DNA of 64,000 nucleotides from Tubiluchus corallicola (taxonomy: Eukaryota; Priapulida; Priapulimorpha; Priapulimorphida; Tubiluchidae). The notes beneath the pieces are model-generated. The model was not told the DNA's origin, did no database searches, and saw only the letters and a program-made list of their open reading frames with translations. The position numbers and the translations under genes are program-made. The stretch lies in contig JAQGDQ010000036.1 in the NCBI GenBank assembly GCA_030141605.1, positions 124,001 through 188,000 of the forward strand, written 5' to 3'. Shown here one piece after another: positions 3,440-63,440 of this stretch (the stretch's first letter is position 1; each line of letters opens with the position of its first letter).

Positions 3440-3521
3440 CCTCCTGCCTGCGCAAACACTTGTAGAAATTTGGCTCATGACTTTGACGACAATGACCATG
3501 CAAATCGCTTTTTGACATCGC
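3440..3521 (-). CDS. RECK: RECK exon 6 (CC2, end)
   Basis: Encodes residues 106-132 and the first base of Asp133: AMSKSDLHGHC, then a segment with FYKCLRRQE. It supplies the last two cysteines of CC2 and aligns with the vertebrate stretch from ASSKND to SCISRNE. Acceptor tttgtag, donor gtatga. Entry is phase 0 and exit phase 1, where CC3 begins. The 82-nt length fits 27 codons plus 1 exactly. Confidence 0.93.
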
Positions 3522-9500: not shown

Positions 9501-12500
9501 AAAATGTTTCCTGCCAACTTCTTTAACAGAATTGCTAAATATTTCTTATCAACTCCTGGAATATTCAAAAAGCTATTGAAACGGTCATAACATAGTATTA
9601 ACGTCTTCAAGCGATTAAGAGATTTCAGTCTACACGATTCATCAAATAAAACTCACAAAACTTAGTAAATTACATTTACATAAAAGCTCGTTCCAATTCC
9701 AACTAAAGTGGTAACAGTGTGATAAGGGTTCAGCCGATAAAGTGAAGTTCTTATATAGATAAGCAGTATTAACTATGCAGTATCTAGCATGTTATTGCGC
9801 AAATGTGTTACGCGCGTACTATTTAAAAGTATACTTGGAAAAATTTTGCTTGGACTTGCAAAAATGTTTTAACGTTTAACCCATTAAGCGCCTCATGATA
9901 ATAGTCTGTCTGCGTATAAGAAAACTGGCATAAACAAATCAATGGACGGCAAATGTCTGAGGAGAAAAACCTCATTATCTGTTAGATACTTGGCAGGGTA
10001 AGATAATAATTACATCGCTTCCAGATTTCTTATGGAACAAAAGCTCAATTTGGCTTTGGTTGTTGAGCCGAGTTCTGTGTTGAGTTCTTCTACCATTTAA
10101 GATCAATAAAAACAGCCTCTGATTAATGACTTAGCTTTCTGTGGACAGCAGGCGGAACGAGAAAACAGTCGATGTCCAGCAAATTACGATTTCCACATTT
10201 TCACCTCTGCCGGTTGAATATTTTGTCTTAGAATTATCTCTGATAACAAACTAGATACCTGTCCCACCACAACCGTCAATTATAATAAGCAAACCCTATT
10301 CATACCATCTTTCTGTGTAAATGCATAACTGCACAATAGAGCCTTTTCAATGAAACAAAGCGTCATGAACCCCGTTTTAGATTCATTGGCAAAATTTTTA
10401 GATTTAAGTCATTTGCTCACACACCCAGATTACGGTATTTAGCACTGGTTATCTGTAGCGCATAATGTTCCATACGTGGGCGGAACCGTTTCAATAGCTT
10501 TTAATAGAAACTGTCCATAATTTACCACCGTTTTCTATGTTAGCACTGTATAATAATAGTCCCTAAATAGTTTTACTTGGGCGAGTTGTGACTATTACGA
10601 TTTATAGAATGTGGGCTGCAGTGTTCAAAATTTGCTGCGCACAGTGTTTAAAAACTGTTTGTACTGTGCTAATTGGATGTGAATTATTTTCTTCTGCGTT
10701 TTTTGTAAATTAAAGGTTTAAATCACTAATCAGTGTTACTGTGCTGTATGCTGTATATATAATTATTACGTGCTCTGTATTATCGGAGATTTCAGCTTTC
10801 AGAAGCATTTAAAAACTTCGAAGCATAACACTTACTGTATGGTGGATTTTTTTTGTAATTAAACAAAGCATCCGTTTCCCAAATTACTGACTCTTAAACG
10901 TCTGATGCTTAAAAGGTTAGAACAGAGGAATATTCTTGACATATACAAGCATATATCAAAGGGCGAATTTTTACCACATACTTTAATAGAATTTATTTCG
11001 CATATTGAAAACACCAAAATTTTAAAACTCTGCGAGCTTACATAAAACTGGTGGCAATAACATAACCGTGTTCAGCGCTAATGGTAAATATTTTTGAGCA
11101 TGAAAAATGATCAAATATCTCTTTAAGAGAACGATGCTGCAAATTGCACGGCGAAAAATGTGGAAACATTTTTCAAGTTGTTTGTAACGCGCCCGCGTGT
11201 CTGTCTGTCGGCAACACCGGCTGTATTTTCTTCATAAAACTGTGACGAACACAGATGATGATTATATCCAACTCGCCCGACAAGTCATTAATATTAGGTA
11301 AAACAGGTAAATTTCAAAGGATTTGCAAAAGCAAATGATCGCGGCAAGGTGATTAGCACGGTTAATTGAATTCATAAAGGCAAGTGGACAAGAACAGATT
11401 TTCTCAGATATCGTCATCATATCGATAAGTCGCGTCCAACAGCGACTTCAACTGAAGTGCATACTTTCACGTATGCAGTTGCAAAAAGAATGCAGTGACG
11501 TGCTTTTGCAATGATCTGGTTCTGACCACTTGGATTTGGAATCTACACCTATCCTATTGACCACAAGCAACAAAAAATATTGTACATGTCGAAAACCAGA
11601 TGGTACCTCACTTGTCAATAGCCCTGTTCTCGGACAATTCTTCGTATTGTTTACAACAGAGAAAGCAGATGCATATTAAAAACGCCAAATAAAAGTCGAA
11701 CATCTGCACAACGAAAGGCCCAATAAACATGAATTTTAGTTTTCGCATAATATGTTTGACTGTTCATTTATCCTATTACTAGTACCACTCTTTTGCATGA
11801 CTTAAACGAAGTGGGGAATGAGCTACCAGTTTTCAAAACAAGTTTTTGAAAGCCACTTGCATAATCTAAAACAGGAAATTTGAAGAGGGTGAATGATTAA
11901 ACTCCTATAAGCTTCGAATAAAAAATATGGTCGCAGCTTTTAGCGTCTAAAAACATACTTTCAGCAGCAAATTCAGCTACAGTCTACAAGCGTCGATTAG
12001 ATTCAGAGGATTCAGCTATAGGTTGACGTTGAGAATGTGACAGTAATCTCTTAGCGAACACGAATTTAACGGATGAACCTAATTCCCGAGGTTATTCGAC
12101 GTTATCTGCAAGCAGTGACCACGGAAGAAGCGTCTCGAGAGATACTCGCGAAAATTCTTATAAAAATCTATCTAAACTGTAAGCAAAATCGGGATTTTCT
12201 GGGTACAAAAACGTCACCTTAATTATAAGAATGTTCTCGTTGTAGGTAATTAACACGGACGCTAAAATCTCGAAACTGTTAATTACATGTTGAACATAAT
12301 CGTGAACATTCTAATTTTCCGTCGATGAATTAAGTAGCGAATCTAGAGACTCAAACGTACTAAGAAATTTAAATTATCAGCGTGACAAGAGGAAAGTTGT
12401 CGTCGTTGATCATTTCATATAATTCACAGACGGACCAACAAACAATTTTCATGTTTAACACATTCTCTTACAACACATGTATGAAATTCGATTTACGCAA

Positions 12501-12891: not shown

Positions 12892-12974
12892 CTGGACACA
12901 TGCCCTCTGGCAAGACGTTGAGATGACGTTGTCACAGCAAGGTCGTCCCCACCAAGTCGATGCTCTATCGACAG
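12892..12974 (-). CDS. RECK: RECK exon 5 (CC2, first part)
   Basis: Completes Ala78 and encodes residues 79-105: a linker with Trp-Trp-Gly, then the CC2 signature PCCDNVISTSCQRACVQ. This matches the Cys-Cys...C-x3-C pattern of the second vertebrate module (GCCELAIALECRQACKQ). Acceptor tttgcag, donor gtatga, entry phase 1, exit phase 0. The exit intron lies two residues after C-x3-C, as in CC1. A run of about a dozen A (minus strand) sits just inside the following intron. Confidence 0.93.
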
Positions 12975-15900: not shown

Positions 15901-16332
15901 TTCCTACTATAGACTACTAAAGTGTGAAATATTTCTCTAACACAATAACAGAAAAACCGACTTTCGCCAAAATATTGTGAAAGACCTGGCTGGCAAGCAA
16001 TACTATGAAGTCACGCCTATGTTAGTGTTACAATAGCTGAGTGTACCAATGTTTTGTACGCCTGTTATTTAATTATGCGCAAAATGGTTTCAAGAACTTG
16101 GAAACAAAATGAATGTTGAGTTTCAAACCTCGCAAACAATACTGAAAAACTGATTAACTTTCCTTAAAATCACAATAATAAAAACTCAAGCAATGTGTAC
16201 ACATATTTAAGACAAACCTATATAGCATACAGTGATATTAATAATTTAATGAAAGAGAAGAGGAATAAACAATTTAAACACGCGCAAAACTTTACCGCTT
16301 CTTCTGATTTTTAGACGTACTATACTACCTAC

Positions 16333-16450
16333 CTGATTTATTCACATCTACATAAGCTGATGTCTCATTGCTCACTGGAATTGTATAATTACTTTGACAT
16401 AAAGAAGGTGATATCAAAAGACAAACGCTCACAAATAAACCGAACAACAT
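16333..16450 (-). CDS. RECK: Candidate alternative first exon with signal peptide
   Basis: The ATG at 16450-16448 (A at -3) opens 39 codons. The product starts MLFGLFVSVCLLISPSLCQ, a textbook signal peptide, followed by 20 residues with two N-glycosylation sequons (Asn-Tyr-Thr and Asn-Glu-Thr). The frame ends in G at a CAG|gtaggt donor, phase 1. The next downstream RECK exon on this strand (exon 5) needs exactly one base from upstream, so splicing gives an in-frame Ala junction. The predicted isoform has a different N-terminus and lacks CC1. It could instead be the first exon of an independent nested gene, but I found no convincing partner exon between 12975 and 16332. Confidence 0.5.
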
Positions 16451-16600
16451 GTTTCGTCGGACACAGCTATAGAACTGACCGAATCCTGTACTCCATGCAG
16501 CAATGATCTAAGCAAGAATGAACACTGAACAGAACCAAGCAGCGGTCTGCTCGCTCGACTGCCGACGCCGATGCGGCTCGTTTTTTCCCGATCTATCAAC
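16451..16600 (-). promoter_or_regulatory. Candidate internal promoter / 5' UTR in RECK intron 4
   Basis: A patch much richer in CpG than the surrounding intron lies directly upstream, in minus-strand sense, of a signal-peptide-coding exon. On the minus strand it includes TTCAGTG at about 16523-16529, similar to the TCAGT initiator of arthropods, with no TATA box upstream of it. A short out-of-frame upstream ORF (ATGGAGTAC...TAG, 10 codons with stop) precedes the main ATG. Promoter activity is inferred from composition and from the exon it precedes. Confidence 0.45.
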
Positions 16601-19600
16601 ACAAATCAACACAACACAAGCCAGTATCACTCTCACCTCTACAAGTGTCAGGGCCGTACATATCTATCTGTCCAGTCTTCTTCATAAGGCACATGAGCCA
16701 ATATACTGTGTTTTTTTACAATTTGAACAAATATCTATAAGTGCAATGTTTACTCTACATTGAAAACATGCTTTATTGTTGTATATAAAACCTCATACAC
16801 GACAAGCGATGTTTTACTTGGTCGGAGAAAACCTACATTTCACTCCTGTTAAAACTTTCTTGCAGGTTTCGTTCACTAACTGAGAAACTGGCTGACTCAT
16901 TCTCAATTACACTACTTCTGAAAACCGTAGACAAAACTATAAAAGAAACATTATATGGATTCATATCAACACGTTTAAAACTAGTCACTATCAACTTAGT
17001 GTAATTAAAATATCATTTGTAAGGATGATGTGAATAGCTATATTTATCATCAAATTATTTGCAATTTCATTCAAACACGAAAACGGCAAGCTGCGATTCA
17101 TATTTTGTATTCCAAACACGCATTATCAATAAGCCATTATCAATACTATCTATATCGTGTGCATTTAGTAAGAATCTTGCTGCACATTACCAAACTGTCG
17201 GTGAGCTTAATTTTTATATTATTCGTTCTTTATTTGTGTAGACTGGAGCTATAAACAATTTTATAGAGCAGGACCTATTATAAACCAATATCGGTACCAT
17301 CAAAAGATCTCTAGGACGCGCATACGGTAGAGCTTTATGTATTTTAACTTTAAACACGCGTTAGCCAGCATTGCTAAACAGTAAACAACAATCTGCACGG
17401 AGTGTTACACTATACGGCTTAGAATGATTGATCAGTATTTTAATTGCAAGTGGTAAGGGATTTGGAAATGAATGAGCTAAACTAGTAAAGGCACGTATGC
17501 ATCGTTAACTCTTTAGCAGTCTGAAAATAGCAGCAAACAAAAAGTTTAACATAAACTTTTTTGACAGCTGAACCTGGTGCTGACAATAATCTCCCATTTC
17601 TTTCTATAGCTTAATTTCCTGCTTACGTTGGAATTTGCAAAGTAAAATCTTGAACGGTGGATCCATAATGTTACTCAGGCAATTAAACTAAAAATGGGTT
17701 TAAGACTCTCTAAAACTTACATGATTTACTTGTAAAAAGCTGTCCAAGTAAGGCAGTGATAAAGAGTTTGGCCGTTTTAATGACTTTACTTTAGCAAAAG
17801 CCCAGAAGAGCCTCAAACACAAAATTCACATTTCAGACTGTAATGCGAGCATAATGAATCGCCCCATTACTACATGGCGCTAACCACTATCCGTTTGGGT
17901 TTTGCCTTCACTACTTAAAATCGCTGTCATTGGTTACTACGGGTAGCTTAATACTTGTAATATATGTATGGTAAGGATGTTACAGGTACCCGTGTTTTCC
18001 CCTGGCACTGAAACAAGAAAATTGGTATTAGTTAGTGAAACACTCTGATTCTAGCAATAGCACATTTTTACTATGCGAAAAACTAAATGAACAATATCAA
18101 TTAGGCCCAAAAAAATTCTTGATTATAGCTCTTAGTACTGAAATCAAAGTGCTCGAATTTTAGCTATCTCCAAATTACTTAGGAATACAAAGTACAGATA
18201 ATGTGCAAGTTCTTTTTGCCTACACACTTTTTCATAACTTAAATTCGTAATTTTTTTTATTTAAATAGCAAATAGCATAATTATAATTACCGATGAACAA
18301 ATTTTCAAACTTAAATGGAACCGCCATATATTAATACTCATAAAAAGCCAAAAGCAGCGCCTAGAGCATCTGCTTTGAATACGCCATGCTTACCAATTTA
18401 TCAGAATCGCAAGTTCGTAGTGGACAGTGTGCGTGGCTTCTCAAAGTTCGACGGCGTCAGAGAAGATTTTAACAGCATAACTGCAAAAACGCGTACCGGC
18501 AAAAGCACCCGTTAAATCTAACGCACGCAAAACCGTTGAGAAGCTTATGTTGTTAAGAAAATAAAAGCACATCCATACTACTTGCGTGTCAAATGCCGTA
18601 CATCATGCTCGCGCGAACGTATATTCATGCGTTGGAACATTAAATTTAATACACAAGATGCCTTAAAAACTTTTCCCACTAACTGCATGAAGTGCAAATG
18701 AAAACATAATGCACGAGGATAACTGCATAATATAATGCAGTAGCAGCCTCAAACGCAACTTTATCTCTAGAGACAAAAGCCACATAAAATCAACTGGGGA
18801 GAAATCTTCGACTATAATAATTTTACAGCGGAATGATAAAAGGCAACATAAAATCAAGCGAGAAAATCTTTTTCCGGCTATTTGTAGCCATGAAGTTGCA
18901 ATAAATGCAGTTATAGCAAACGCTGGATTGAGATTTATAAGACTGAAGGCAGGGAAATGGTTGAAAATTGAAATGAAATATACCGATATTTTTTGAAGAT
19001 GCAGGAAAGCTATAATGCAAGTGTAGTCTGAAATGTCGTTGAAACGAGAAGTGTGTAATTTGCGTAGAAATTTGAAGAGATCAACATGGAAAGTGTTGTC
19101 AAGCACAATGATTTCGTGACCACGTGACGAAAAACGCATCCACTGATGTTCAATAAGATGTTCGGCAGGTTGTTTTTATTTTAAAATGAAAGGTTTGGTT
19201 CAATAAGGGTGAATACATACTAAAAAGTCGACATTAAAAGTTTACTTTTTTCAGTGGCTCAGGCATGGTGCAGTAATGTTGTCAAGCAACTTCAAATTTT
19301 AATCGATTAATCGAAAAAATTTTGAATTACAACCAAGGGTGCTTTTCCGTGGAATTCACTGACAAAGTAAATCTTTTTGAATAGGAACAAGATGTGCACA
19401 AAGCAGTTGAAATTCTCTGATTCAACCAAGTCTTCGCTAAAATACTTGAAGAGAAGTGGAAAAACTATTATTATTAAAGTATACGCCCTAACTATCTTAT
19501 AAAACACTTAAAGATATTATTCTTTTGTTAAACAGTGTCGCCACAGAAACTCCCAATTGGCAAATATTTGCGCCTCTAAATAATTGATACTGAACTCTTC

Positions 19601-24065: not shown

Positions 24066-25560
24066 AAGCTGGAAATGAGTCTAAAAAATATTGAAATTGT
24101 ACCTAGAATAAAAATAAAACTGTCTATAGAACATAACTTAAATTTTACGATTAAAGTTTTATCACTGTACTGACCATTTCAGGAGTCGCAGCTTTTGCTC
24201 TAGAAATCTGTGTTATTCAAGCAAAACAGGTGTCCGTTATTTAAAAGTTTGGATGATTTTGCAGTTGTCCAGAAGCTAATACTATATATGTCTTTTGCAG
24301 ATTGGAGATAAGACCGGAGCAATATAGATCAGCTCTTCAGGGCGTGGTTCGTTTTATGGCTGGCAGATAATAGGTGTGGTTAAAAATCACGGTATCTAAG
24401 GGTCGAATGAGTGATGGGTAGCACTTGGTGACCGATTTCCGGCTCTGCTCTCCGTTAATCAGAAATAACCTATATTCTAAGCTTACCTGGTATCAGGTTT
24501 ACCCACTTTGTTCAGAAAACAAGATGCACTCAAACTCATGAAAACAACTACATTTACTCCCATCTCTTCAGTTTACTGACCACTAGAGGTGCTTGATGAT
24601 AACCTTCCGCTCAATGCTGTTAATATTTGGGCAGCAAACACGCGAAATCTGCTATTCTGCTACTGTCCTGATCAAACAACCATCATGCATCGATTTTAAC
24701 TGTCATTTGCCTGAATTTATCATCAGTATTTATTGGCACGATAACTACATCAAACTAACAACTGTGAAAAAATGAACATTTCTATATTTCCCGTAAATGC
24801 GAATAATTAGAAAACAATTATCATGTAATCACAACTCTTATACATTTATATTAAACAAGGTGTCCAGGCTAATAAAACAGTAGTGCCGATAAAAAAATCA
24901 TCGACAAAAGCAGCGATAGGAAGCTTTATCAGCAACAACAACAGGTATAAAAAACATTGAAAAGCCTAAACGCAAGCTTACATGCTTAACCATATTACTG
25001 ACAGCAATAATAAACGAGCAAGGATAGCAACGACAGCGACATCATCAGGCGACAGCAATTTCCATTGGGTTTTTCGGCGAAGAAACACGTTACTATACCA
25101 GAGATAATAAATTTGCATTTGCTGTCATTCATAATTTCATCGACATATGATCTTCAACGGACACAGGTTTGGTGACAACCTTGGGAAGGCAAAATAACTG
25201 TTAATTGCTTAGAGCTTTATAATGTGTCCAGCAGGTTTTAATACTTCAAAGCACCGGCGATGACAACTACTACACAAAGACACATTTATAAAACTTCCGG
25301 TAACAGCAAGACTGCAAAAATGACAAATATTTGCTGGGTAGCACGTTCATTATGATTTAGACAAAACAATGAGGGCAGCAAAAATATTTGCAATGGTCAG
25401 TCCTCAGACTGGTCAACAAACCGAACATCAGGTGGGTCAGGAACAGGATAGAATCTAATTAGCCATTCACAAAAGACGCTATAAGAAAAATAATGATAAA
25501 CAGCACAGAACAAACAATGATGTTGTGTTGTACATGTTCAGAAGTTTAAAATAAAATAAT

Positions 25561-25683
<123 letters not shown>

Positions 25684-27768
25684 TTAATATGGGTTTATTA
25701 CATTTATGTATATTCAATCCTAGAGTTCTTCAATAGTACTGTTTTTAACTAAAATTTGCAGATCTATAGTGTGTTAATTTATTAATTTGTTTAGATTTTG
25801 TTAGAACAATTAAAAAATGATTCGCAGGTAGGTAACACAATATATACTGCAGAATTATAAAGGAATTTAAAATTTCAGATATTGGTTCAACAACATCCAA
25901 CAACAATACACCAAAAAAGCAAATGTTGATAGGCCAGTTTCCACGAAGGCTACTGAACCGCCATAATAAATTTTTAATCGTTAAAATGACGATTCTTTGG
26001 GAAACGGCTGCTCAACTGCAAAATTTAATAAAAATGATGTGGCACTGTGCAAACAAATGAGGCATAATTAAACCATTTGCCGTGCACGCATATGAAATCA
26101 GAACGAAAGCCTCATCAACTAAAATACTGGTTAATATTGAACTTGTAATTTGATAAATCATTCAGAAAACTCGGATACAGCCTACAATATTTTGACAAGA
26201 CACGAGGCAAAGACAGAAATCTTCTTAGACATATTAATTCAATCTGAAAAAATATTAGAATCAATTAACAGACTAAACAAGATTTGTCGACTCATTTGCA
26301 TTGCTTTTATTTTTGAATGAAGTGAATACATTGTAACCAATGTGTGTAATTAGTGGCTCTAATAAACTACATCTGACAACCATATAACAAAGACAAAATT
26401 GACTAGGATTTAATAAGATTAGTTGTTATGCTAATAAGAATTCCAAAAAAGCCTAGTTCCAATGGTAACGTGTTTTATTCTGAACATTCACGCACTGCAC
26501 TGACCGGTAATTTAAAATTATACAGTATACACTATGCAGCAATAAAGTTATATGATAGCAAAGTGATTATAGTCAATCAAAAGTGTCAAAGTGGATAATT
26601 CGTTGTTTTTCAGTAAAATTCTTATAAATTGCAAAGATTTATATCAACTTTCAGAGAATTTCTCACATTCACTTTATACCAAAGGCTATATGGCTCATCG
26701 GCCTGCCAGCAATCATCTGAGTAAAATTCCTCAATGCACGGCTTTCATAGTGATCGAGTCGACTCTGTCGTAGTTATCAACGTCATACAATTCTGCCTTT
26801 TATGAGTGCACTACGGACACCACAATGAACAAATTGCAATAATTATAGGGTAATTTACAGAAAAGCTCTCCTGCATGAGAAAACACCTGTCTAGCCGTTC
26901 CTTCACCGCTCTCGTGATCACAATCAGCTCCCATTATCAATACATATAGCTTGGGAGGCTCTTTTTTCTATTTACCACTTTGTGTAGTGTGCACTATAAT
27001 CTCGTGTGTACTGCAGGATGGCCATTAAATGAGATGATTTGGACGAAATTTGGAAATGGATCAAAATTTTTCCAAATGCATAATACCATAATGGGCCCGC
27101 TGTTATAACCGAAGCTGTCCATTGTGCAGAACTATTTATAACCAGAAATGCCTTCCAGTTCTACCTGCGAACTCTGAACTTTGATTTATTTTATCTAAAT
27201 AAACGAGATTAATCGCAGCCATATAAACTGGATGGGATGAGTAGTTCTTGAAAATGACACCACCATATTTCACGTGGTGAAAATTCCCAAGCACTAAATT
27301 GTAAATTGCAGACGAGTGGTAAGTAAAGCATGTTGTGTGCCTATGTTTTGACATGTCTAGCAGTTAATCAATATTTCTAATTAATGACCCGCTAATTAAT
27401 AATTGACTTATCGATTACTCCGTTTGCTATTGTGAAGTTTCAAACGACGACTGTAGAAGTGCAGGTTTATTAGATTGATTTTCCATCAAAAAGCAAATCA
27501 ATGTTGAATTTATGCATGCAGAGAAGCCAATGGCCTATAATTATCTAATATACGTTTTATATGTATTGTATATAGAATACCTACGTCTCTTCGTGCCACA
27601 GCAATCTATAATATTATCAGTTCAGTGCATCATGTAAACATGTAGAGAAGGCCGTGTTGTTTTTCTGCTTTAACCAAATTTCGTTACTAAGCTGCACATC
27701 AAAAACAGTGAATTCAATATTTCCCGTTAATGAAGAAATATTTTAACTTGCCTAAATATTAAACTTAC

Positions 27769-27805
27769 CTTGAATTGTATCATTGATGCACTGCCAAAAT
27801 TTTTC
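27769..27805 (-). CDS. RECK: RECK exon 4 (CC1, end)
   Basis: A 37-nt micro-exon encoding EKFWQCINDTIQ (residues 66-77) and the first base of Ala78. It aligns with the end of vertebrate CC1, which has the pattern W-x-C-x-N-S-S. The Asn73-Asp-Thr sequon sits where human RECK has its N-glycosylation site at Asn86 (numbering from memory). The acceptor follows a T-rich tract ending tttcag, and the donor is gtaagt. Its phase-1 end fits exon 5 exactly. It is too short to find as an ORF and is supported by splice sites, frame and alignment. Confidence 0.88.
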
Positions 27806-32620: not shown

Positions 32621-32695
32621 TAGTGTTTTAGGACAAAGAGATATCATATTAACCATGAGCGCTTTCCTCTTTTCATCATCAGCTTGCATTGACAT
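32621..32695 (-). CDS. RECK: RECK exon 3 (CC1, middle)
   Basis: A 75-nt exon of exactly 25 codons (residues 41-65), starting MSMQADDEKRKALMV and ending with Cys-Pro-Lys-Thr-Leu. It corresponds to the vertebrate CC1 segment whose Cys-Pro precedes the W-x-C motif. Acceptor gttgcag and donor gtaagt are both strong. It is bounded by phase-0 introns on both sides, so skipping it would keep the frame but remove a CC1 cysteine. Its first codon is an internal Met, not a start. Confidence 0.9.
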
Positions 32696-56061: not shown

Positions 56062-56120
56062 CTCTCCACACCAGTGTTTACACAATGAAGGACCAACCAC
56101 ATCTTGACAACAAGTTGGGA
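56062..56120 (-). CDS. RECK: RECK exon 2 (CC1, first part)
   Basis: Encodes the end of codon 21 through residue 40, PTCCQDVVGPSLCKHWCGE. It carries the opening signature of a CC (CNKM) module: a Cys-Cys pair, then a C-x3-C motif, aligning with the first CC module of vertebrate RECK. In mice and fish CC1 contributes to the GPR124 interaction (family knowledge). Acceptor is tttacag and donor gtaaga. The exon enters in phase 1 and leaves in phase 0, two residues after the second cysteine of C-x3-C. That exact intron position recurs in CC2 and CC5. Confidence 0.92.
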
Positions 56121-57931: not shown

Positions 57932-57992
57932 CTTGTCCTTTTACATGGATGAGCAAAAATAGTTGAATATGCACAATAAACGTTAACCTCAT
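57932..57992 (-). CDS. RECK: RECK exon 1 (signal peptide)
   Basis: Coding exon 1 encodes residues 1-20 and the first base of codon 21. The product starts MRLTFIVHIQLFLLIHVKGQ, a short basic N-end followed by a hydrophobic core, as expected of a secretion signal; RECK is a secreted, GPI-anchored surface protein. The ATG (57992-57990) has a purine at -3. The exon ends in G before a gtatga donor (phase 1) and joins exon 2 to give Val21. The first cysteine pair follows at residues 24-25, so cleavage probably falls near residue 20. The match is by position, frame and signal-peptide character, because signal sequences are not conserved. Confidence 0.85.
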
Positions 57993-58768: not shown

Positions 58769-59822
58769 AGAGGTGAGCAAACCATCATCATCATCAATGA
58801 ATCATACGTCCAGGGACATGATTCTGCTCACCTCTCTATGCCAGGACTCCTTACACGCTGCAATGCCCCAATAGAATCAATGCTGAAGCGTTTAAATCTT
58901 TCTGTGCAAAATCTAAGTATGTTAAGATTTGTCCTCCTGCAGGTTTTTTAGCTGGTTCTATGGCTTGTTCTTCACTATCTTCACTGGAACATCAGCAGGT
59001 AGTCTAAGCATATGCCCAATCCAATCCCAATCCGGCGTCTTTTTCTTGTCCAAGGTTCTTCTTTTATTTCTTCATATAGATCTTTGTTTGAAATTTTCTT
59101 TGGCCATCTAATACCCAAAATGTTTCTGTATTTTCGCCTTTGAAACACATCGATTTCAGCTTTATGAATTGCTTTAATGTCCAGAGCTCAGAGTTATACA
59201 GAAATACAGTTTCAACTAAGGCTGAGAATATTCTAATTTTTGTTTCCAAAGAAATCTTCCTATTTTCAAAAACTATTGTGAGTTTTGAGTAAGCTGATAG
59301 CCATTATCTTCCGTCTTGATATGTCGTCCTCTGTTGCCAGCAGACTACCGAGATACTTGCATCTTTGCCATGATTCATCACTATGGCGTGTTATATGAAA
59401 CTCTTCAGTTTTATTTTTGTTTACAACAAGATCCATTCTGTTCAGTTTCTCCTCTATTGAGTTTTTTATTTCATCTACTTCTTCTTTGTTTCTTGTAATC
59501 AATGCCACATCATCAGCATACTGCATTGATATCGTAGTTGACTTACTTTGTAGAGAGCTGTAACTGTGTTCTTGTTTTACTTCATTCGGTATTAATTCAG
59601 GATCAAGAATTGTGTAGTTGTGATCTTCTAGGTCTTTCAATGGTATAACTTTGTCCTCAGTGAGAGCTATGGCAAGATATAAAGTAAAAAGTACAGGGCT
59701 TAGACATTCACCCTGAGGTACTCCTTTGTTTGTAGAAAATGGCTGACTCAATTTCCCTTCACACCTGACTTGAATTAATAGATTTTCTAACATTATACTT
59801 ATGATGTATATTTCGTCAGTTT
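58769..59822 (-). mobile_element. 5'-truncated non-LTR retrotransposon (LINE 1)
   Basis: A LINE fragment on the minus strand running from inside its reverse transcriptase (59820) to its 3' tail. In order it shows the PQG box (NKGVPQGECLSPVLFTLYLA), the catalytic YADD box (MQYADDVALITRN), a YLGSLL block with DDISRRK, LYNSELWTL, a RRRIGIGHMLRLP block, and a C-terminal CKESWHREVSRIMS. The tail is a run of GAT units typical of some LINE 3' ends. An 11-bp inverted repeat (58769-58779 with 58825-58835) flanks the tail. Only the 3' half survives. The clade is not assigned. Confidence 0.9.
58803..59820 (-). pseudogene. Reverse transcriptase C-terminal half, frameshifted
   Basis: The open frame 59820-59266 carries the PQG and YADD motifs. 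It ends at a TGA created by a one-base insertion in a T-run near 59270. The next piece, from about 59270 to 59064, has LYNSELWTL and ends at TAA. Homology continues in pieces through further stops to 58803. The N-terminal fingers domain and any endonuclease are missing. The first 17 or so residues of the longest frame (above 59820) are read from the neighbouring hAT end and are not part of it. Confidence 0.85.
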
Positions 59823-61372
59823 CAAGGTGCGCAAACCGCGGAATGCGGACTCGCAGACCCAAGTTCGGCAACGTTTTTATGGGAAGTCCGGATTGCGGAG
59901 TGCGGAACTAAGTAATTTCTTAACTATTGTTCGCGGACCCAATAGCCAGATACGTAAACCGTGCAATGTCCAATTATTTTTAGCTCTTTTCTAATAATGG
60001 GGCATATTTAATTGTTTAGTGACTGATAATGATTAGCAGTCTTCGACTGTTGACGTTTGTATTGTATGTGTGCATTACCCAAAAGCTCTTGTTTCATCCA
60101 TAGCTATGGGTGTGATTTCGCTGCTTTATCGCGCTATGCAAGGCAACTGACCGAGTAGTACATTAATCGGCCGATTGGAATACTCTGAGATTCGTAAAAT
60201 TTGATAAAGGAATTATTAATTTTATACTGTGAGATTGAATGTGAATGTGTAGCCATGACGAAGTGATGAATTATTTTAACTTAAGAATGACTGGCATGAT
60301 TGTTCAGCAGTATACCAAAGAAGGAAAGTTCGTCATTTTGTCATTCTGGAAAAACCTACACTGTGTTGCAAAACTGATATTTGGTGTCCTGTTCGCCAGC
60401 ACCATCTGAACGACTGAACGTGTGTTCAGCTTAAATGGGCATACTTTTAACAACGGGAGGACAAGATTATCGCTTTAAGTCCACAAAATTTGGACAGAAT
60501 CTTATTTTTAAACAGCAAGCGAAAGTGACCACTCACTTGTAAGAAAGGCCAGTTTTTAGCGATTTGACTGTTGTAAAATCAAAGGGATACAAATTTCAGT
60601 TCAGTTTTGCATTGTCTTTCCTCTCTTAGTCACATGCGAAGGGTAAAATTTAGTTCCCATTGTTTATTGTTTATAGTGCTATTTGCATGCGTTTTTAAAT
60701 TATAGTGGTGGCAGTGACAGTGAACGTATGATGATCATGCTGAGTGGTGTTCATGATGTTAATGATGGTTGTTGGTGGTGGTGATGGTCATTGTTTTGGT
60801 AAAATGAAGCTGACAAAACAAGTAAATGACGACTAGATGTAGCTACTGCTACTCCTGTCGGTGATGATTACAATGATGTTCCTAGAGTTAGAAAGGTGAT
60901 GCACTTCAGCTCATGATGAGGTGATGACGGTGACACAATGTGATTACTCATCTCTAGTATACAGACATTTATTTATTACCACATAAAACCCATAAATCTG
61001 TAAAATACAGATCACAGTTTTCGACTTCACTAGGTCAACTTTAATTTCTTGTTATTATCATAATTACTTTTAATTTTATTAGGCTTAAAGTAATTTGTAG
61101 TGCTAGTAATAATTTATAAAACCTGCCAGCCAGACTTCAGCTAGTTTATTTAAAAGACGAGAGAATTATACTGCGATCTTTTTATTGCCTCGATAACTTG
61201 GCTTCATGATAAGACATATTTAAAGTTTAGGCTTGACATAATCATTTATATATACTGTCCTCGCTGATCTAGCGGATCGCGGATCTGACGATTTCATACG
61301 GCCGCGCACCATTCTTTTGCAGACCTGAAGATGCTCGGTCCGCGAATCTGGTACGCGGCAAAGGAACCTGTG
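59823..61372 (+). mobile_element. hAT transposon remnant
   Basis: About 1.55 kb with degenerate terminal inverted repeats. The left end reads CAAGGTGCGCAAACCGCG and the complement of the right end reads CACAGGTTCCTTTGCCGCG; both pass into TCGCnGACC. Subterminal CGCGGAyC motifs recur (59930, 61275, 61338). Inside is a transposase C-terminus of the hAT family. Most of the transposase is missing, so this is a deletion derivative. An imperfect GAT/GGT trinucleotide stretch lies at about 60710-60960. An exact 8-bp target duplication is not visible, so the ends are approximate. Confidence 0.65.
60256..60528 (+). pseudogene. hAT transposase C-terminal (dimerisation) domain remnant
   Basis: From 60256 the frame reads DEVMNYFNLRMTGMI, then FWKNLHCVAKLIFGV and, after a stop, ERVFSLNGHTFNN. 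This is the hAT C-terminal dimerisation signature (FWK...LA...SERVFS...RR.RL). A frameshift near 60470 moves to LSPQNLDRILFLNSKRK and a terminal TGA at 60526-60528. At least one internal stop and one frameshift make it non-functional. No zinc finger or DDE core remains upstream. Confidence 0.85.
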
Positions 61373-62128: not shown

Positions 62129-62572
62129 CAGGGGCGGAACTAGGGGGGAGCGAGGGGGGCGCGCGCCCCCTTTGTCAAAATTTGCGCCCCCTCCCTGCAA
62201 AATCGGACAATTTTTTTTGCAGTGAAAACTGCAGTTCGCATGTAATCATTTTCAATATGAATTAGAATTAGGTAAAAAAATGTTTGGTAGCTTCAGTGTA
62301 TTATTTTCTTAAAACTTGTGTGTGATAAATTTCTGTAAATAACAATTTAGTTAGAGGCACATTAATAACGTTAGGTTAACTGAGAGTTAATTTTCTCATT
62401 ATTGCTCTGTCCGCTACGCTGTCCTACACACGCTAATTATAGGCCTGCATGCAGTATAAAAGGGGTTAAAATTGGCTTAACCATTATTTAACCACTTCGG
62501 ATATCTCGCCCCCCCCCCCAGAAAATTTTTGCGCCCCCCCCCCCCTGCTTGCCACATCTAGTTCCGGCCCTG
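62129..62572. mobile_element. hAT-type MITE with 8-bp target duplication
   Basis: A 444-bp element with terminal inverted repeats: left CAGGGGCGGAACTAG, right end complementary CAGGGCCGGAACTAG. GAAGCAAC is duplicated exactly on both sides (62121-62128 and 62573-62580), the 8-bp target duplication expected of hAT. The subterminal regions are C/G homopolymer-rich with AAAATTTGCGCCCCC-like motifs on both sides. It has no coding capacity; the minus-strand frame at 62484-62684 runs across its end and is spurious. It is nested in LINE 2 and therefore younger. Confidence 0.93.
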
Positions 62573-62595
62573 GAAGCAACTTCTCTATAATTATT

Positions 62596-63440
62596 ATGAA
62601 TAAAAGTTCGGGAGAAGGAAACATTCCAGCGAACTGGAAAACTGCATATGTAACAGCAATTTTCAAGAAACGAAATAGGAACATGTCAAAAAACTACAGA
62701 CCTATTAGTCTAACATCAGTCGTATGTAAAATTCTTGAGGCTGTACTTCAAGACAGAATTATCAATCACCTAGAAGAAAATAACTTATCTCTGACAACCA
62801 ATATGGTTTCAGGGTAGGAAAATCATGCCTAATCTCTTGGAAACTATAGGGGACTGGCTAGAAATCCTTGATACTGATGGAAAAGTGGATGTGATCTATT
62901 ATGATTTCCAGAAGGCATTTGAGCATGTCCCTCATGAAAGACTTCTATATAAACGTCAAGCATGTGGTGTTGACAGTCACTTACTGAGATGGACTGACAG
63001 TTTCCTCTAAGACAGAATGCAATCTGTGGGACTAAATGAGTGCAAATCATGATGGAGATTAGTTACAACTGGCATCCCACAAATTCACAATTTTCATTAA
63101 CGATTTACCCGGCACATTAATTTGTGGAAGCAAACTATTTCCTTGTGCTACCAAAATATAAGACACAGTAATAACCATAGAAGATCAAGATCATATGCAA
63201 ACTAATGTAGACTCTACAGATAATGGGTGCAGAACTTAGCAAATGATTTTTAATCACGACAAATGTAAAGTTACAAAAGTTGGCAAAGTTCCAATGATTC
63301 CCTATAGATCATGACACATAACAGTAATCTCAGATCAAGTGAATGTCTATGAAGAAAAAGACCTTGGTGTTACTGTGGACAAGTTGCAGTTTACAAGTCA
63401 CATTCATGATATTATTGCAAAAGACACATAGCATATTAAT
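62596..63440 (+). pseudogene. Reverse transcriptase pseudogene of LINE 2
   Basis: RT blocks are present but broken. There is a frameshift just before QYGFR, and another between the GKSCL motif and NLLETIGDW. About 10-15 residues after GIPQ are lost by deletion. Stops lie at the ends of the frames at 62817 and 63010. At the position of the catalytic F/YADD box the sequence reads KLFPCATKI, so both catalytic aspartates are gone. It is dead as an enzyme. Confidence 0.85.

Follow-up and report, generated by a model that had tools for sequence, protein, structure and literature searches.

A candidate alternative first exon in intron 4 of the RECK gene of Tubiluchus corallicola, predicted to give a form without CC1

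Beta neurexin is a form without N-terminal domains whose signal peptide comes from a separate exon of its own. The alpha and beta neurexins are made from two promoters per gene, according to the portions of the source available to us (PMC12665717). In mouse, the accessible parts of two further papers link CC1 of RECK with the binding of GPR124 and CC4 with signalling by Wnt7a (PMC6588345; PMC12842694), with CC4 residues P256 and W261 being needed for the latter (PMC6588345). RECK has two jobs, as a Wnt co-receptor and in protease control, and a natural form lacking only CC1 would make these parts testable apart. An earlier note on a stretch of 64,000 nucleotides from the priapulid T. corallicola (hereafter the window) had proposed that such a form starts from a second promoter and signal-peptide exon within RECK, and we describe here how that candidate compares with the systems above.

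To place the candidate, we modelled RECK exons 1 to 6 around it, of which exon 1, at 57992, is only probable. The exons are as follows.

57932 to 57992, minus strand: probable canonical exon 1, MRLTFIVHIQLFLLIHVKGQ, with a phase-1 donor (AAG/gtatga) and 12 CpG in the 200 bases upstream
56062 to 56120, minus strand: RECK exon 2 (59 nt, phase 1 to 0), which encodes the first part of CC1
32621 to 32695, minus strand: RECK exon 3 (75 nt, phase 0 to 0), which encodes the middle of CC1
27769 to 27805, minus strand: RECK exon 4 (37 nt, phase 0 to 1), which encodes the end of CC1
12892 to 12974, minus strand: RECK exon 5 (83 nt, acceptor in phase 1), which encodes the start of CC2 and is the predicted splice partner of the candidate
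3440 to 3521, minus strand: RECK exon 6, end of CC2, with a less certain donor position

An alignment of the spliced product of exons 1 to 6 to the RECK chain 8tzp_C covers residues 36-146 of that chain (E 3.2e-14) and starts in exon 2, and the candidate therefore lies in intron 4. Exon 2 of mouse Reck is also 59 nt long, according to the part of the source at hand (PMC6588345). The gene, the strand and the position in intron 4 given by the earlier note are thus borne out by exons 2 to 6 and by the probable exon 1. Five RECK CC domains with the pattern CC-x7-8-C-x3-C are present: CC1 is recognised solely through the alignment to 8tzp_C and has no Pfam match; CC2, which exon 5 opens, matches PF22961 at 62 bits; CC3 shows the cysteine pattern, its Pfam score of 25.9 bits being below the cut-off of 27; CC4 scores 43.5 bits and the first part of CC5 32 bits. 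Downstream in the gene are a frizzled-like domain (PF23298, 131.9 bits, frame 1469-1161) and, at about 122.1 kb of contig C2214, a Kazal-like frame identified by pattern, the only one found by that pattern. Two matches to PF23298 exceed the cut-off in the genome, both in this RECK gene, with the second of them a little beyond the edge of the window; a third match, in another place, stays below the cut-off. A KIF21-like gene lies upstream of RECK.

Some of these exons were found only when search thresholds were lowered. A strict search for exon 3 found nothing, and lower cut-offs gave two candidates, of which 32695-32621 fits RECK. The sole row of a single-exon search for the end of CC1, at 17687, was a false lead. 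Strict searches covering 78 to 158 kb of the DNA before exon 2 yielded no convincing canonical exon 1, and a relaxed search of 56120-93000 returned eight rows, from which we picked 57992 for its CpG content, its start context and its closeness to exon 2 (1.8 kb). This probable exon 1 has no homology of its own and fails the rule-based signal-peptide score. We rejected a CpG-rich patch 77 kb upstream as exon 1, which by eye looks like a DNA transposon. A CpG-rich repeat at about 256.4-257.5 kb of contig C2214, with repeated TTAATATGGACA words, is transposon-like by eye.

Several other elements lie in and near the window. A single-exon ORF of 66 residues (MEPPYINTHKKPK...) occupies 18315-18515 on the plus strand in a CpG-rich patch of RECK intron 4, with an AATAAA soon after its stop; it is single-copy in the genome by protein search, has no Pfam or PDB match, and is possibly a small nested gene on the strand opposite RECK. 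In intron 5, a CpG-dense patch (21 CpG per 300 bases, observed/expected 2.0) lies at 11851-12400. Open frames at 59266-59907 (minus) and 62470-62817 (plus) look by eye like fragments of retrotransposon reverse transcriptase, and an (AAT)n microsatellite of 47 copies at 25550-25689 reads as long Ile or Leu runs. Outside the window, an SMC4-like frame (by eye) of 1266 codons without a stop, from about 267.7 kb of contig C2214, is perhaps an intact retrocopy, or else a gene without introns.

The candidate exon and the features around it are these.

16333 to 16450, minus strand: candidate alternative first exon, coding part, with ATG, signal-peptide-like start, sequon-rich segment and phase-1 donor
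16327 to 16332, minus strand: candidate donor gtaggt (CAG/gtaggt), score 7.0 with a generic matrix
16467 to 16496, minus strand: upstream ORF of 9 codons, MEYRIRSVL, in the putative 5' leader
16523 to 16529, minus strand: initiator-like TTCAGTG, a putative start site
16400 to 16599, no strand assigned: CpG-rich patch, 14 CpG per 200 bases, putatively promoter-like

The 39 codons read MLFGLFVSVCLLISPSLCQSNYTIPVSNETSAYVDVNKS. As the earlier note had it, the ATG, at 16450, has an A at -3 (context CGAAACATGT) on the strand of the gene; an in-frame TAG lies upstream of it at 16510-16508. The phase-1 donor CAG/gtaggt is likewise where it was reported, after 16333 on the minus strand, and its score is below that of the RECK exon 4 donor (7.9) and above those of exon 2 (6.4) and exon 5 (4.7) with the same matrix. 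Its phase is that of the exon 4 donor, and the claimed match to exon 5 is confirmed: exon 5 starts at 12974, and the predicted join to it (12974-12892) places GCT (Ala) at the joint and reads AVDRASTWWGRPCCDNVISTSCQRACVQ.

We scored signal peptides with a rule-based measure, not with SignalP. The start of the candidate is signal-peptide-like by this measure, and to that extent the earlier proposal of a 19-residue signal peptide stands, but the best cleavage positions are after residue 16 or 18, which are tied, with 20 close behind. Cleavage after residue 18 would leave the new segment without cysteine; cleavage after residue 16 would keep Cys18 in the mature protein. The segment after the signal peptide is about 21 residues long and has three sequons (NYT, NET and NKS), one more than had been counted before; the 22 residues on either side of the predicted mature start contain all three, a density equalled in only 0.044% of the 132,336 overlapping windows of open frame. 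Neither Pfam nor PDB gave a match to the 39 residues, and they show no homology to RECK. A protein search found no second match to them in the 343.5 Mb genome, nor was a second copy of the 501-base candidate stretch found in it, and the window gave no Rfam match at gathering scores. Apart from the corrections given here, what the earlier note had observed in the letters is confirmed.

Promoter-like features upstream of the ATG were also as described, although less distinctive. TTCAGTG is present at 16529-16523; it is a short word and proves little. The CpG-rich patch is real, and over 274 kb 0.42% of 200-base windows are at least as dense, but it is not unique: among 300-base windows over 194 kb, 12 clusters hold at least 17 CpG, whereas four windows at the candidate hold 14-15. 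Other places have richer CpG patches but no known promoter, and at least one of these patches resembles a transposon by eye. The 200 bases before the candidate ATG contain 12 CpG, the same number as upstream of probable exon 1, and no match between the two 5' regions is longer than 9 bases. The upstream ORF MEYRIRSVL falls between the initiator-like site and the candidate ATG. Because richer CpG clusters lie elsewhere, the initiator-like word is short and an upstream ORF precedes the ATG, we go no further than to infer that the candidate exon may have its own promoter.

With a start codon, a signal peptide by the rule-based score and a donor whose phase agrees with that of the RECK exon that follows, the candidate has the parts of an alternative first exon, and we think it is probably one, used from its own promoter to give a CC2-CC5 form of RECK. 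Transcripts would start near 16526 and would be spliced from 16333 to 12974, the first base of RECK exon 5. In the predicted product, about 21 glycosylated residues would replace CC1, and CC2-CC5 and the frizzled-like and Kazal parts would be kept. Since exon 4 and the candidate exon end in the same phase, promoter choice alone would decide whether CC1 is present.

The strongest alternative to an alternative first exon is coincidence, with an open frame in T-rich intron DNA that by accident begins with hydrophobic residues and runs into a donor. The sense strand is T-rich here (the plus-strand AT skew is positive), which favours hydrophobic codons. Nor does codon usage set the candidate apart from open frames in introns: its score is matched by 42% of the open windows there, and that of the part after the signal peptide by 11% of null windows, but the measure is blunt, as RECK exons 1 to 5 straddle the candidate's value. 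We also compared the candidate with other frames that have a signal peptide and a donor. Four frames passed our cut-offs for both in 194 kb (both strands), and 11 passed with a shorter minimum length in 234 kb. The candidate's donor ranks best of the four and second best of the 11, a frame further off, at 164791, having a better one; its signal-peptide score is 4.40 against a top value of 4.41 (frame 37431, in the window); and its upstream CpG count is the highest in both lists. When a phase-1 donor scoring at least 5 was required over 234 kb, two frames passed, the other having a donor of 7.9 and a hydrophobicity of 2.48, versus 3.12 for the candidate.

As a null we used 120 order-4 Markov simulations of the 234 kb, on both strands, with the candidate's own values as cut-offs. 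Frames at least as strong in both signal peptide and donor arose at 0.025 per simulated 234 kb (in 3 of the 120 simulations), and none of the 120 had one that also showed phase 1 and a purine at -3. With a looser measure the rate was 0.21 per simulation (19 of 120), or 0.075 with phase 1 (8 of 120). However, at the loosest cut-offs the real 234 kb hold 12 frames on both strands, against a simulated mean of 3.5 and a maximum of 11, and the chance figures therefore need raising about threefold. Even so, the main figure does not reach 0.1 per 234 kb, and intron 4, read in sense, accounts for about 3% of that search space. The shortage of loose frames in the simulated null led us to raise our estimate for chance and to lower that for the main reading. 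Still, with three sequons, and with the CpG patch, phase, strand and position all in agreement, we regard a chance origin as unlikely. If it were nevertheless the answer, the candidate would be a good-looking intronic ORF of little interest.

Less probable again, and in our view a distinctly long shot, is that the candidate is the first exon of an independent gene for a secreted protein that lies within intron 4, runs on the same strand and has later exons and a poly(A) site of its own. The 39 residues without RECK homology would suit such a gene, and intron 4 offers 15 other acceptors and, downstream of the exon, six AATAAA or ATTAAA words. Between 16272 and 12892, 17 acceptors score at least 2, and that of exon 5 comes second (5.6 versus 5.7 for the best, which leads to five codons and then a stop). 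But of the 17, only the acceptor of exon 5 is known to lead into an exon that matches a family; behind the others the open frames run to no more than 52 residues and by eye resemble no known exon. Same-strand nested multi-exon genes are also rarer than alternative first exons.

It is highly improbable that the candidate is the sole real exon 1 of RECK, moved into intron 4 by assembly error or rearrangement, for although the exon 2 acceptor is also in phase 1 and fits the candidate donor as well as exon 5 does, strict scans upstream of exon 2 gave no further good signal-peptide exon whose donor is in phase 1, and the probable exon 1 fails the signal-peptide score, the relaxed scan does yield that fitting, CpG-preceded exon at 57992 close to exon 2, and the 274 kb scanned contain no N gaps.

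If, as we favour, the candidate is an alternative first exon of RECK, what would be lost can be read from the gene model. All six CC1 cysteines are in exons 2 to 4, and the swap would therefore remove CC1 whole, so that the earlier prediction of an isoform without CC1 is upheld at the level of the model. The alignment to 8tzp_C shows that CC4 P256 and W261 are kept here, in a conserved LPQDPLW, and these residues would be common to both isoforms. The resulting form of RECK would have the Wnt-linked CC4 and the protease-linked parts, without whatever CC1 binds.

The further step, by which the loss of CC1 had been connected to GPR124, is less secure. CC1 residues R69, P71 and Y73 were reportedly described by Cho et al. 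in 2017 as critical for the GPR124 co-receptor role in mammals; these labels were not found in the main texts that we searched in the open-licence literature. In the alignment to 8tzp_C, this animal has N, I and L where human RECK has residues 69, 71 and 73 (exon 3, 32621-32695). Thus, while the loss of CC1 stands, the GPR124 inference is weak for this animal. CC1 may here have a partner other than GPR124, and because R69, P71 and Y73 align to N, I and L, losing CC1 may amount to losing some other contact.

Putting these parts together, we lean slightly towards a RECK gene with two promoters, each with a signal-peptide exon, in which promoter choice would set the presence of CC1. The second form would carry a short glycosylated tip and the Wnt-linked CC4; CC1 would be a separable module, possibly with a partner other than GPR124.

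How does such an arrangement compare with those already described? In the neurexins, as predicted for our candidate, an internal promoter leads to a shorter cell-surface protein (available portions of PMC12665717); the neurexin genes are, however, unrelated to RECK, and their transcripts are established, whereas the candidate RECK transcript is predicted. The IgLON genes Lsamp, Ntm and Opcml, with promoters 1a and 1b, are alike in that alternative first exons each encode the signal peptide of a GPI-anchored protein, but the processed IgLON proteins have identical N-termini, as the source describes them in the part at hand, and the candidate form of RECK would lose a domain and gain a segment (PMC5288359). 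Within RECK itself, human variant 2 (NM_001316345) has extra exons in introns and a potential protein without CC1; unlike in our candidate, these exons are in introns 2 and 6, CC1 and CC2 would both be lost, the start codon is in a poor context, and the sections of the paper that we could consult describe no new signal peptide (PMC12842694). Amphimedon RECK also has fewer CC domains, but the same sections present it as a homologue with three, not as an isoform (PMC12842694). Among the matches listed in our search of the open-licence literature, we found no RECK alternative promoter or isoform without CC1 beyond human variant 2. Internal promoters and alternative first exons are thus a known kind of arrangement, and the instance in T. 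corallicola would, if real, be a new variant of it.
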